DNA from: a virus
Length of the DNA: 23,455 nucleotides
IMG/VR virus record: IMGVR_UViG_3300046007_000664
Location: 1 to 23,455 of that record
Direction: 5' to 3' (one strand)
The notes under the pieces: model-generated
What the model saw: only the letters and a program-made list of their open reading frames with translations
What the model was told of the DNA's origin: nothing
Databases searched by the model: none
Program-made: the position numbers and the translations under genes
Shown here: positions 16,029 through 20,833 of the stretch, piece after piece
Position numbering within the stretch: position 1 is the first letter of the stretch
Layout: every line of letters begins with the position of its first letter

Positions 16029-16259
16029 TTAAAAGTAATTTAATCCAGTTTTCTTAACCGTTTCCATGTGTTCTTCTATAATCTCATTGATGAATTTTCT
16101 TTCGGAATTAGACATGTTAAGGATGTCTTGGTAACTAGCACCACCGCGAAGATGCCAAGCCATGGATAATGCTGATTTTTTAATGCCCCCGACTTCTGTT
16201 TCCATACTTTTAATTAACTTCTCAACCTCATCGGGGGTTGCGTTTAGAAGCCTTAGCCG
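16029..16259 (-). CDS. Tail-assembly-chaperone-like extension in the -1 frame of gp26
   Basis: This 76-codon frame is read by ribosomes that slip back one base at the end of gp26. It encodes NATPDEVEKLIKSMETEVGG, then IKKSALSMAWHLRGGASYQD, and ends ETVKKTGLNYF. I recall small T4-like phage proteins of this pattern next to gp26, with no known activity. In its own frame a TAG lies 3 codons before the CGG, and there is no ATG, GTG or TTG until codon 19 (ATG at 16205-16203). That ATG has only a distant GAGAAG, which would give a 58-aa product missing the conserved lead-in. The continuous frame from the slippery site therefore favours a gp26 fusion of 349 aa (273 + 76). By position it may correspond functionally to T4 gp51 or to the GT extension of lambda tail chaperones; that is inference. 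Confidence 0.75.
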   Translation of the reverse strand, partial: RLRLLNATPDEVEKLIKSMETEVGGIKKSALSMAWHLRGGASYQDILNMSNSERKFINEIIEEHMETVKKTGLNYF

Positions 16260-16265
16260 AAAAAA
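16186..16265 (-). promoter_or_regulatory. Programmed -1 frameshift site: U_UUU_UUC plus pseudoknot
   Basis: In gp26 reading phase the last codons are GAT TTT TTC GGC TAA, giving a perfect X_XXY_YYZ heptamer T_TTT_TTC (16259-16265). After an 8-nt spacer comes a hairpin: CTTCT (16246-16250) and CAACC (16236-16240), separated by a 5-nt bulge, pair with GGTTG (16223-16227) and AGAAG (16218-16222). The 8-nt loop contains CCCGA (16231-16235). It is complementary to TCGGG within TCGGGGG at 16186-16192, so an H-type pseudoknot can form. Spacer length and order are those of known frameshift signals. Confidence 0.72.
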
Positions 16266-17077
16266 TCGCTAGCGTTCAATGTGAAGGGTTGTTTATATTC
16301 ATGGCTGCATCCGGCGCATTGAATATCTAATGGTTTTAATTCTGTGCTTGCTTTGAGATTAGTATTATAATCTCTCATGGTTTCATACATGCCAGCATCA
16401 CAATTACGTAGGAAATCTAAAATAAAATCTTTCTCACGCACAACACCATTGGGGGTTTGGATATATTCTATTGATTTTGAAATCAATTGCATGGTTATAT
16501 CAGTGATGCTTTTGATAGCTACTTGTGTTGCAGCTATTTTTTGCTTTTCATCTTGAATCTTTTCAATCTCAGCAAAACTCTTTTGAACATCAAATTGACC
16601 CAATGCCGCTTCATTCATCTCGGCATAAGTCATTGGTTTAAATTTTATGGATAAATTATTAATTTCTAATTTTTGATCGTAGTTACCCTGTTTTAAAGTT
16701 TGTAAAACATTGACTAAATTTACTCCATACGTATTTGTTTCTTTACATGAAGGACATGATGTAGTGACATCTAAGGTAGTATCGCCGCCGGCAGCTCTTA
16801 TACCGATCAATATTGCGTCTAGATCGCTTGTTGTCAATCTCCAAGGATCTTTAATATTTGGTAAGCAACTTTTAATCACATCCGCAACAGCATTGCCGTT
16901 GAACAATGCATCAGGCGTTCTTAATGATATTTCATCGATTGCTGTCATAGGATAAACCGGCAATTCGCCGTTTTCCGGCATGTCTATCACATCAGGGCTA
17001 TAGTCTTTACCCCTACTAGGTAGATTGATAAACACGGCTGGTCTACGGAAGTACTGTTTTAGCGGATTATTGTCCAT
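16253..17077 (-). CDS. 26: Baseplate hub/tail assembly protein, T4 gp26-like
   Basis: A 274-aa protein of the T4 baseplate gp26 family. The N-terminal half carries RRPAVFINLPSRGKDYSPDV, the NGELPVYPMTAIDEISLRTP segment (36-55) and PDALFNGNAVADVIKSCLPN (55-74). Two cysteine pairs, C108-PS-C111 and C254-AG-C257, could make one zinc ribbon bringing the two halves together. T4 gp26 (208 aa) is needed for baseplate hub assembly, and it may function like the tail assembly chaperones encoded upstream of tape measure genes in other tailed phages. Here the gene is back-to-back with the tape-measure-like gene, 87 nt away. The ATG has a good AAAGAGG 9 nt upstream and a perfect late element at 17134-17141. 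The last codons carry a slippery site leading into the -1 frame extension. Confidence 0.88.
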   Translation of the reverse strand: MDNNPLKQYFRRPAVFINLPSRGKDYSPDVIDMPENGELPVYPMTAIDEISLRTPDALFNGNAVADVIKSCLPNIKDPWRLTTSDLDAILIGIRAAGGDTTLDVTTSCPSCKETNTYGVNLVNVLQTLKQGNYDQKLEINNLSIKFKPMTYAEMNEAALGQFDVQKSFAEIEKIQDEKQKIAATQVAIKSITDITMQLISKSIEYIQTPNGVVREKDFILDFLRNCDAGMYETMRDYNTNLKASTELKPLDIQCAGCSHEYKQPFTLNASDFFG

Positions 17078-17164: not shown

Positions 17165-20100
17165 ATGACACCCGAACAATTACAAGACCTGTCCAATAAT
17201 CTAAACGATCTACGTGCAGCTATTAATCAAATAGCAGGTGCAAGTAGCATCATGGCTAATAGTCTTAACAGAACTATACAGGGTTTAGGACAAGTCGATC
17301 CTACATTTAGACGAGCGGCATCAGCATTAGACGAAAGTGTTAATAGAACAAGACAAGCAGGAAATGCTATTCAACAAGAACAGCAGGTTGCAGCTCAAAC
17401 AATTAGAAGAAATGCACAAGATCAAGAAAATGCTACTAGGGGTTATGTAGCATCTTTAAGAACTTTAACTAATGGACTAACATCGGCAACAGCTAGTTTG
17501 CAAAATCTATCTGGGATAGCGCAAATTGCAGGTAATTCAGTTTCTTCATTAGGTATAAAAATGGGCGCTGCCGGGGATAAAGCTGATGCGCTTGGAAGAT
17601 TTGTTACCGGTATCGGCGAGAATATTTTTAAACAAGCGGAAGCATATAACGCTTTAAAAAACTCATTGCAACGAATGGGTGCTGCAGGAGAACATACAGC
17701 ATCTAGCCTATACCAGTACGGTAAAGCAGCAGGATTATACAGTGAAACATTAGGTTACATGCTCGGCCCAATAAAAGCATTGGGTACTAATATAATATCA
17801 TTAGGAAGAGGCGCTGGCGATGCTCAAAGAGCATTCATGGAGATGCTCCAAGTCAGCGATGACCAAAGAGCAATGTTTGCTCGTTTGGGCATGTTTCAAG
17901 AAGATTTAATTGCTAGACAAGCAGATTATGTAGCACAACAACAAGCAGCTGGTATCAGTATCAGGAACATGAATACTGATATGCAAAGTTTGCGTAAAGC
18001 AAGCCTTGACTATGTAAGAAGTTTATATGACTTGAGTGCATTGACCGGTCAATCAATCGAACAAGAAAGAGAAAAACAAAAAGAGGCTGTTTACGAACGT
18101 AGATTAATGACCGAAATGTTCGCTAAACAAGCGGAAGCTGCTCGCTTAAGAAGAGAAGCCGATCAAGCTGAAGCGTTAGGCACTCCGGAAGGTTTAGAAG
18201 AGGCAAGAAGAAAACGCGGTGAAGCGGCAGCGTTAGATAGACAAGTTCAGGCACAAGAAAAATTAATAAGATCATTAAGCGAATTGCCAAAAGAAATGCG
18301 CGATGGCATTATCGGGGCAATGACAACAGGCGGTATAGTTAATGAAGGTGCAGAAGTACTAGCACGCCAGGGTGTTCTTGATGACATCTTAGAAATAACA
18401 AGTAACCTAAAAGAACGTGCGGAAAGAGGAGAGCAAGTCGATCCAGAAATGGAAGCCCAACGCATTATGCAATTGATCGGTGAGGGTCAAGCACAAAATG
18501 CTGAAGTATTAAAAAATGCATTGTTAGTAGGCGGCGACGAACTTGCTAGAAAATTAGGTTTTAGTATCAAAGATATAGAATTTGCTAGAGATCAATTAGG
18601 TAGAGATCGCCCAGCAGAACTTGAAGCAGCCAGACGTAGAAGAGAAGCAGCAGAAGCCGGAGGTCAAGATTTAGTTTCTGATACTGCCGCAAGATTGCAA
18701 GGACTTTCTATCGCATTAAATCAAGCCGGAGAAGAACTAACTGCTGCAACTAGTCCCTTTATTCAAGGATTTAATTTAGTAACAAATGAATCTGTAAGAA
18801 CAGCAGGTGCAATACAATCTTTAGGAGAAGCTGCTGTTGATGCTATTGGTAAAATAGCCTCAACAACACAGGGTTTGTTACAAAATGCAGCAAATGCAAG
18901 TGATAAATTTTCAGGAATACCAACTCAAGGAGGTAGCAGTACAATAGGACGTAGACTCCCTGTTGATCAACAGGGTACAACACCTTCGCCTGTCGCACCA
19001 GTTGCAGCCCCTACCACACAAGAAACACAACCTCCTACTACACCAGCTGATACTACGCAGGTTGCGCCTACTGCCACAGCTACACCTGTACCTACATATG
19101 CCCCTATCACTGTTGAAACAAATTTAGGAAATAGAATCACATTAAATGCAGGTGCTGTTGGAAAAATTGCAGGACAAATTAAAGAAGGAAAAAATAGAGA
19201 CCAATTAAGAGGGGAAATAAGAAAATTAATTGGTAACAACACAAATTATAATCAAGCAACTATTGATAAAATTATTGATAAAGTTGCTGAAGTTGCAAAT
19301 TTACCTAAACCAGCTGGAAGTGCCGCAACAGCTACACCGACTACACCTGCAGCACAAGTTCCGACACAAGTACCAGAAGCTGTGCCGACTACACCTGTAA
19401 CGGAAGTTCCGACACAAGTACCAGAAGCTGTGCCGACTACACCTGTAACGGAAGTTCCGACACAAGTACCTACAGTAGCACCGTCTACTACCAATGCTCC
19501 ACCGGTAACTGGTGCAAGACCTGAACCAGCTACAGTTGCTAGACCTAGCCCAACTGCTACAGGTACACAAAGACCTCGAGTAACAACACCTGCCGCCGGC
19601 ACTGTTGCACCTAGAGATTTAGACGTATCAACTCCTAAAGTAATTGATACTGTAAGCTCAGAACAACGTAATTGGCAAAATCGTGAAAATGAGTTACGTA
19701 ATCGTTTAAGCGATATGGTGCGTAATAAAAAATCAATCACTAAAGATCAAGCAAATCAGATTTTAGATTACTATGATACATTAAAAGATAAGCCAGGTGC
19801 TATACCAACTGTTGATCAAATTATTCAGAATTCTGGAGCGTTGCGTAGACCTACTACGGCGACAACAGCGCCAGTCAATACAAATGGCGCCCGCCCAGAA
19901 GCAGCACCTAGAGTACAGGCAAATTTACGTAGACCTAGAGAGGTAACTCCGCCGGCTGATTTAGCAAGAAGAGCTGGATATAGAGAAACATTACCTGGTA
20001 ATGTTAATACTTCATTACCTGAAATGATAGAAGCAGGATTGCCACCAAGCGCATTACGCGGCAGCGGTATACAAGAACCGTTAGGGGGCGACAGAGATCC

Positions 20101-20833
20101 AGGAACATTTGACACGCACGGCGAAGGTGCTCAAATCGATCCAAGATTATTGACTGCTGTAAATCAATTAGTAGCAATGTCAGGAAGCGGAGCTGCTCCG
20201 TTTAAGATTTCGCATTTGACAGCACTTAATGACTATTATCATAACGTGAATTTACCGGGTAGTCAACATACAAAAGGTAGAGCGGTAGACTTTAAATTAG
20301 ACTTGCCGCCGGGACAAGAAGCACCTAGCGAAAGACAATTTCAAGAACTATCAAATTTCATGAAAGGAACTTTGGGTTTTGATGTCGTAATCAACGAATA
20401 TAAACAAAAATCAAGGGGATGGAACGGTCCTCATATTCATGCTCATTTTAATGACCCAGAAACAACAATGATGGGAGGGGACAATTATCAAGCACCTACT
20501 GATATGCTACAAGCAGCATTAGGTGGAATAGCATCAGGACCAAAATCAGGTTTCCCCATTATGCTGCATGGTAATGAAATAATTGTTCCATTAGATCCAA
20601 ACAGCATACTTGCTGATTTAGGAAAAAAATCGCAGGAACAAATCAAAACAGAGATGTCAACTTTCGATAAATCTGTTGCTACAGAGAAGTTAGATACTAC
20701 GATGTTTAGAGATATAGCAAGACAGAATCAGCAATTGATGGAAATGTTAGGAATTAAATTGGATAACGTAATTAATAAACTAGATACGGGTAATGATACT
20801 CAAAGCAAGATATTGCAATACAGTCAGGCATAA
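17165..20833 (+). CDS. Tape-measure-like tail protein with M15-type peptidase domain
   Basis: A 1222-aa protein. Residues 1 to about 590 are almost entirely helical with heptad-like Gln/Ala/Arg-rich stretches, as in tape measure proteins that set tail length and leave the tube first at ejection. Residues about 590-950 are a Pro/Thr/Val-rich flexible linker with a 16-residue tandem repeat. Residues about 980-1095 look like a zinc D-Ala-D-Ala peptidase (M15): GSQHTKGRAVDF with H1035 and D1042, and GPHIHAHF with H1090/H1092. The region after carries GGIASGPKSGFPIMLHGNEI and IVPLDP (about 1120-1145), a C-terminal pattern common in tape measures. It probably cuts peptidoglycan during DNA entry, compensating for the lysozyme-free gp5. 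No Shine-Dalgarno sequence is evident before ATG 17165. A distinct virion-associated tail lysin is the alternative. Confidence 0.78.
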   Translation: MTPEQLQDLSNNLNDLRAAINQIAGASSIMANSLNRTIQGLGQVDPTFRRAASALDESVNRTRQAGNAIQQEQQVAAQTIRRNAQDQENATRGYVASLRTLTNGLTSATASLQNLSGIAQIAGNSVSSLGIKMGAAGDKADALGRFVTGIGENIFKQAEAYNALKNSLQRMGAAGEHTASSLYQYGKAAGLYSETLGYMLGPIKALGTNIISLGRGAGDAQRAFMEMLQVSDDQRAMFARLGMFQEDLIARQADYVAQQQAAGISIRNMNTDMQSLRKASLDYVRSLYDLSALTGQSIEQEREKQKEAVYERRLMTEMFAKQAEAARLRREADQAEALGTPEGLEEARRKRGEAAALDRQVQAQEKLIRSLSELPKEMRDGIIGAMTTGGIVNEGAEVLARQGVLDDILEITSNLKERAERGEQVDPEMEAQRIMQLIGEGQAQNAEVLKNALLVGGDELARKLGFSIKDIEFARDQLGRDRPAELEAARRRREAAEAGGQDLVSDTAARLQGLSIALNQAGEELTAATSPFIQGFNLVTNESVRTAGAIQSLGEAAVDAIGKIASTTQGLLQNAANASDKFSGIPTQGGSSTIGRRLPVDQQGTTPSPVAPVAAPTTQETQPPTTPADTTQVAPTATATPVPTYAPITVETNLGNRITLNAGAVGKIAGQIKEGKNRDQLRGEIRKLIGNNTNYNQATIDKIIDKVAEVANLPKPAGSAATATPTTPAAQVPTQVPEAVPTTPVTEVPTQVPEAVPTTPVTEVPTQVPTVAPSTTNAPPVTGARPEPATVARPSPTATGTQRPRVTTPAAGTVAPRDLDVSTPKVIDTVSSEQRNWQNRENELRNRLSDMVRNKKSITKDQANQILDYYDTLKDKPGAIPTVDQIIQNSGALRRPTTATTAPVNTNGARPEAAPRVQANLRRPREVTPPADLARRAGYRETLPGNVNTSLPEMIEAGLPPSALRGSGIQEPLGGDRDPGTFDTHGEGAQIDPRLLTAVNQLVAMSGSGAAPFKISHLTALNDYYHNVNLPGSQHTKGRAVDFKLDLPPGQEAPSERQFQELSNFMKGTLGFDVVINEYKQKSRGWNGPHIHAHFNDPETTMMGGDNYQAPTDMLQAALGGIASGPKSGFPIMLHGNEIIVPLDPNSILADLGKKSQEQIKTEMSTFDKSVATEKLDTTMFRDIARQNQQLMEMLGIKLDNVINKLDTGNDTQSKILQYSQA
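19356..19470 (+). repeat. 48-bp in-frame tandem repeat in the tape-measure linker
   Basis: Two identical 48-bp units begin at 19356 and 19404, followed by a 19-bp partial copy at 19452-19470. They encode 16-residue units around VPEAVPTTPVTEVPTQ. A more diverged copy precedes them. The length is a multiple of three, so gain or loss of units would only change linker length. The identity of the copies suggests a recent duplication. Confidence 0.85.

Follow-up and report, generated by a model that had tools for sequence, protein, structure and literature searches.

A conserved U_UUU_UUC heptamer and a probable -1 programmed frameshift at the end of a gp26-like phage gene

A gp26-like gene in a 23,455-nucleotide stretch of viral DNA (IMG/VR record IMGVR_UViG_3300046007_000664, positions 1 to 23,455; here called the window) very probably gives rise to two forms of a tail assembly chaperone, the longer of which would arise by -1 programmed frameshifting on the heptamer U_UUU_UUC with the aid of a downstream stem (Table 1). 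Across the sequences compared, the heptamer, its phase, the extension in the -1 frame, and the stem are conserved under selection. We infer frameshifting in cells, its efficiency, and the chaperone role along the following lines. The majority of ribosomes would halt at the gp26 stop and release a short form of 274 aa, and a minority would slip back one base on U_UUU_UUC and translate 76 more codons, giving a long form of 349 aa; the slip would be aided by a stem-loop 7 to 8 nt downstream and, in some relatives, by a pseudoknot. By analogy with G and GT of lambda, the tape measure protein would be coated by the short form, and the helical extension would connect it to tail-tube or hub assembly.

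Table 1. Coordinates in the window of the gp26-like gene, its candidate frameshift signals, the -1-frame extension, and the neighboring gene.
Feature	Position	Strand	Basis
gp26-like protein, 274 aa; putative short form, TAC-N or G equivalent	16253..17077	-	PF12322; phrog_150 "baseplate hub"
Slippery heptamer T_TTT_TTC, one codon ahead of the gp26 stop	16259..16265	-	In phase; clade-wide conservation
Outer stem, 5' arm GCUUCU, 7 to 8 nt past the heptamer	16246..16251	-	Pairs kept in 62 to 65 of 65 sequences; covariation
Outer stem, 3' arm AGAAGU; closing pair is G-U in the window	16217..16222	-	Pairing conservation
Loop strand CCCCCGAU, 5' strand of the candidate pseudoknot	16230..16237	-	Eight consecutive pairs, one of them G-U
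Downstream strand GUCGGGGG, 3' strand of the candidate pseudoknot	16186..16193	-	Pairs with the loop strand
-1-frame extension, 76 codons (RLRLLNATPDE...KKTGLNYF)	16032..16259	-	Open frame, stop at 16029-16031; selection
Tape-measure-like protein, 1,222 aa, divergent from gp26	17165..20833	+	Weak PHROG tape measure matches

The gene ends in GAT TTT TTC GGC TAA, and the slippery sequence that an earlier note had placed there, U_UUU_UUC in the correct phase, is present as TTTTTTC read T_TTT_TTC. The description of the -1 frame in that note was likewise borne out: the frame stays open for 76 codons past the heptamer, is closed 3 codons upstream by a TAG, and offers its first ATG, GTG, or TTG after 18 codons, and the predicted product sizes match the reading frames. 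Joined after F273, the extension would complete the long form, the equivalent of GT. The window gp26 scores 61.4 bits against PF12322, for which the curated Pfam cutoff is 24.5. Its AlphaFold model (pLDDT 85.4) had no match at E ≤ 0.001 in a fold comparison with the PDB, and its named top matches in a viral structure library were baseplate hub proteins. The extension is predicted to be helical (pLDDT 84.6) and, when compared alone with Pfam and PHROG, fell into no convincing family (best E values, 0.038 and 0.33, respectively). Rarity of the heptamer was considered as evidence and rejected: TTTTTTC is seen six times in the window against 8.65 expected by shuffling. Since the heptamer alone is not rare, conservation must carry the argument.

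A first scan of viral contigs yielded 25 loci of the window clade, with gp26 identities of 45 to 100%, and a second scan with a nine-sequence alignment yielded the best 80 of 522; five contigs were fetched in both scans, so the 105 window-clade loci correspond to 100 contigs. T_TTT_TTC stands in phase in all 105 loci and in all 80 members of a non-redundant set, no two of which are identical over the final 60 nt of gp26 and the extension. The downstream frame lies in the -1 phase in each of these 80 and encodes a complete extension in 79, that of L194 being cut by its contig end. No second in-phase TTTTTTC was found in the 80 gp26 genes (21,930 codons), and other in-phase XXXYYYZ heptamers are common there (82 elsewhere in the genes, 162 in total). 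The two slip-site Phe codons are TTT TTC in 80 of 80 sequences, preceded by GAT in 78 and AAT in 2; of the 681 Phe codons at other positions in these genes, 251 are TTC. One sequence, L024, and its duplicate, L025, continue gp26 for four codons beyond Phe-Phe, not one, and keep both the heptamer and the extension. By these counts, conservation of the in-phase heptamer exceeds chance, unlike the heptamer count itself. The earlier note had proposed to test whether relatives share the heptamer and the -1 phase of the downstream frame, and throughout this clade they do.

Is the downstream frame reached by frameshifting, or is it a gene of its own? The pooled pN/pS of the extension is 0.135 (15 hand-picked pairs), and by this measure the extension is under purifying selection. 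Conservation begins at residue one, with the pattern R1-x-x-L4-L5, and the 25 aligned extensions all carry R1, L4, L5, W35, R38, G39, Y43, E53, and K69. The alternative, a separate small gene that ribosomes reach from the gp26 stop by reinitiation or translational coupling, with the heptamer incidental, would agree with public annotation, in which 15 of the 17 phage records fetched give a small CDS ending at the extension stop, five of these (Phosso, BF, XbC2, Kaldavass, and PBECO4) overlapping the gp26 stop by one or four bases. It would also agree with the start codon found directly past the first extension codon in 11 of the 80 window-clade sequences; a first start 17 to 20 codons upstream of the shift, in 5 of the 80, likewise speaks against frameshifting. 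Most of the 80, however, have no start near the junction. The commonest first start lies after 18 codons (22 sequences) or 32 codons (19 sequences) of the extension. An SD-like motif precedes a start within the first 20 extension codons in just 1 of 80 (L218). Moreover, the invariant R1, L4, and L5 lie upstream of most of the possible starts, and the heptamer is itself invariant, all of which makes the separate gene an improbable reading. The remark in the earlier note that the downstream frame lacks a usable start close to the junction applies to most of the window clade and fails for those relatives whose start overlaps the gp26 stop. Under frameshifting, the reading that we prefer, the long chaperone is missing from these annotations, since 15 of the 17 records split the extension off and the other 2 omit it.

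For comparison of RNA structure, the window clade was thinned to 65 sequences of less than 92% identity. Each pair of a 6-bp outer stem is kept in 62 to 65 of the 65, with changes on both sides at three positions, and the same stem is predicted by RNAalifold. An inner stem is unpaired in 15 to 44 of 65 sequences per pair when held to one fixed register and is strong in 28 of 65 with a variable register. Pairing was also evaluated by a permutation test in which 3' arms were redealt among sequences in 2,000 shuffles, a procedure that ignores the relatedness of the sequences. The outer stem gave a z value of 7.6 and the inner stem 8.4, and the pairing of the loop with the downstream strand, a region picked after its pairing had been seen, gave 4.1; in each case, 0 of 2,000 shuffles reached the observed value, and four control region pairs gave z values of -0.5 to 1.6. 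An unsupervised scan found both the inner and outer stems and ranked the pseudoknot low (z, 2.4).

The hairpin that the earlier note had drawn shortly past the heptamer exists in the window as the stem CTTCT/AGAAG, and the 6-bp outer stem 7 to 8 nt downstream covaries among relatives. The pseudoknot proposed in the same place fared less uniformly. The pairing CCC(CC)GA/TCGGG(GG) is found in the window, which belongs to the pseudoknot subset with its eight consecutive pairs, and covarying versions (CCCTGA/TCAGGG, GCCCG/CGGGC, and ACCCG/CGGGT) occur in relatives at nearly the same downstream offset, but strong pairing (score of ≥11) is confined to 21 of 65 sequences. Judged from these alignments, the outer stem is the more general element. 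The 90 nt of downstream RNA from the window are not unusually stable on their own (z, -0.43; 62 of 200 shuffles as good), and in their minimum-energy fold a long-range CCCCCGA/TCGGGGG helix replaces the CTTCT stem.

Covariation of the stem in the window clade also bears on transcriptional slippage, by which the T run, and not the ribosome, would join the two frames. This alternative is favored by the run itself, which comprises six T here and seven or more in phiM12, HTVC008M, and XacN1. A run of six T is short for transcriptional slippage. TTTTTTC keeps its codon phase in all 105 window-clade loci and all 80 cyanophage-type loci; together with the covarying stem, this leaves transcriptional slippage very unlikely and argues for ribosomal frameshifting.

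The signal extends well beyond the window clade. With S-PM2 gp26 as the query, the best 80 of 276 matches were taken as cyanophage-type loci (51 non-redundant), and every one of them (80 of 80; 51 of 51) has the heptamer one codon before the stop, followed by a -1 extension. The 17 named phage records were fetched as representatives of two tblastn searches, the second of which matched 64 records, and in 16 of them a T6 heptamer stands in phase and is followed by a -1 extension of 69 to 79 codons. Four further IMG/VR loci, two of them identical to fetched phages, agree in heptamer and -1 extension. Six of seven named T4-superfamily phages (P-SSM2, S-PM2, HTVC008M, KVP40, phiM12, and W-14, but not T4) have the heptamer, and T_TTT_TTT takes the place of T_TTT_TTC in HTVC008M (L054), phiM12 (L055), and XacN1 (L043).

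Recurrence on this scale, in independent genomes, refutes the explanation that a single gene, decayed or mis-sequenced, was split into the two frames by a frameshift mutation. Such a gene would explain why both frames together resemble T4 gp51, which is one open frame, but the same -1 break is present in every one of the 105 window-clade and 80 cyanophage-type loci and in 16 of the 17 phage records, and the -1 frame is under purifying selection, so that the probability left to this explanation is close to nil. The earlier note had named random substitutions in the heptamer and downstream frames in other phases as evidence against programmed frameshifting; neither was seen in the window clade, but an exception lies outside it. 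Streptomyces phage BRock (L044, 1144-2227) has a gp26 relative without a T6 heptamer and an extension-like frame in the +1 phase (CTG TTT CGC ... TAA), and therefore a +1 or -2 shift is possible there. The extension-like frame of BRock precedes a large phrog_329 minor tail protein.

The two groups differ in the stretch before the slip site: among the cyanophage-type loci (L065-L144), 47 of the 51 non-redundant ones have an SD-like motif 6 to 18 nt ahead of the heptamer, versus 0 of 80 window-clade sequences. The frequent Glu-Gly at this site permits an SD-like motif with many codons, and its Glu codon is GAG in 30 of 42 cases versus 337 of 1,182 elsewhere in the same genes (Fisher P = 2e-8, relatedness being ignored). 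The downstream RNA structure of cyanophages is split between alternatives. Cyanophages may use a stimulator, the upstream SD-like element, that differs from that of the window clade.

T4 itself encodes two PF12322 proteins, gp26 and gp51. Gene 26 ends in GAG TTC TTT GAG TTA CTA TAA and lacks the heptamer. The frame of gp51 stays open throughout, and its C-terminal piece aligns with the S-PM2 extension (BLASTP E value, 6e-5). A profile of four phage extensions (S-PM2, P-SSM2, phiM12, and W-14) matched T4 gp51 in hhalign with an E value of 6e-5 and a probability of 65, and a mixed profile that included the extension of the window matched it weakly (probability, 11.8). The link between the window extension and gp51 is indirect, because the mixed profile is weak and the four-phage profile is better. 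Within the superfamily, T4 appears to obtain both forms from two genes, 26 and 51. The equivalence of gp26 plus its extension to G and GT, as put forward in the earlier note, gains indirect support from gp51, since this second T4 member of PF12322 has a C-terminal piece similar to the cyanophage extension, and by analogy the two products are most likely short and long tail assembly chaperones, as G and GT are. In a review (PMC3004832), T4 gp51 is described as required for assembly and absent from the particle, and gp26 is listed as a hub assembly chaperone. The same review states that genetic studies support gp26 as a component of the T4 hub, which speaks against the chaperone reading, since a pure chaperone would not be part of the hub.

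The position of gp26 beside a tape-measure-like gene and divergent from it, which the earlier note had pointed out, recurs among relatives. A relative of the tape-measure-like gene lies head-to-head with gp26 in 94 of 105 window-clade loci; of the remaining 11, ten have an opposite-strand ORF 45 to 285 nt away, and one has too little flanking sequence. PHROG tape measure matches of the 1,222-aa protein are weak (E values, 3.6e-4 to 2.5e-3). The location typical of G and GT, directly ahead of the tape measure gene and on its strand, is not that of gp26 in the window clade. Large ORFs lie downstream of the extensions of S-PM2, P-SSM2, and KVP40, and for these three the identity as a tape measure gene was not established. 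The S-PM2 ORF just past the extension (L052:2344-3690) matches the Pfam ADP-ribosyltransferase families PF01129 and PF03496.

How does the proposed system compare with those already known? The slippery site of lambda G and GT is G_GGA_AAG. As summarized in PMC5009743, lambda makes a short form and, by a -1 shift at a slippery site where the short gene ends, a rarer extended long form, both linked to tail assembly, which the window system would share; the window differs in its protein family (PF12322), the length of the short form (~274 aa), its heptamer (U_UUU_UUC), and the divergence of the gene from the tape-measure-like gene. T4 shares the Pfam family of gp26, and its gp51 carries a C-terminal piece like the cyanophage extension, but T4 has two genes and no heptamer, whereas the window and its relatives have one gene and a -1 frame. 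Cyanophage gp26 (S-PM2 and P-SSM2) agrees in the heptamer, its position, and a -1 extension with a similar C-terminal motif and differs in an extension of 60 aa in these two phages and in the SD-like element that precedes the slip site. TAC-N/TAC-NC of Pseudomonas phage Adele and Vandenendeviridae likewise have a proposed -1 frameshift at a poly-T motif (GTTTTT) where the short chaperone gene ends, but the locus there is upstream of the tape measure gene (PMC12846349).

Vladimirov, Gautam, and Davidson (2022) are reported to describe, for T4-like phages, a short chaperone gene and a fused long one, presumably genes 26 and 51, and a 2025 paper names Vladimirov et al. (2022) as the source for poly-T signals in the chaperone genes of T4-like phages. 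Frameshifting in T4-like phages is therefore probably already in print. Among the open-licence papers listed by the searches, none was found on such a frameshift in jumbo phages, a divergent arrangement, or a change of stimulator, and what is apparently new here is the reach into jumbo phages, the divergence from the tape-measure-like gene, and the varied stimulators around one heptamer. We lean slightly toward the view that the ancestor of the T4 superfamily, many jumbo phages included, already had the single U_UUU_UU(C/U) site, that the site was kept as the stimulator changed, and that near T4 a duplication put a short gene 26 and an in-frame long gene 51 in its place; if true, this would directly exemplify the exchange of a recoding site for a second gene. 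In PMC5009743, T4 is cited as the exception among long-tailed phages, which as a rule produce their two tail chaperones by frameshifting, and our comparisons suggest that the exception is T4 itself, not the wider group. The loci would also provide a test set of natural frameshift sites in which the heptamer is constant and the stimulators differ.

Two further observations concern the gp26 protein. In the viral structure library, predicted structures of 384- to 553-aa proteins of the jumbo phages RP12, Special G, RSL1, and Eowyn match gp26. The window gp26 also has two CxxC pairs (C108, C111, C254, and C257), invariant in a 20-sequence gp26 alignment, and this pattern suggests a putative zinc-binding site; with cyanophage sequences added to the alignment, C108 alone of the four Cys residues is still invariant.
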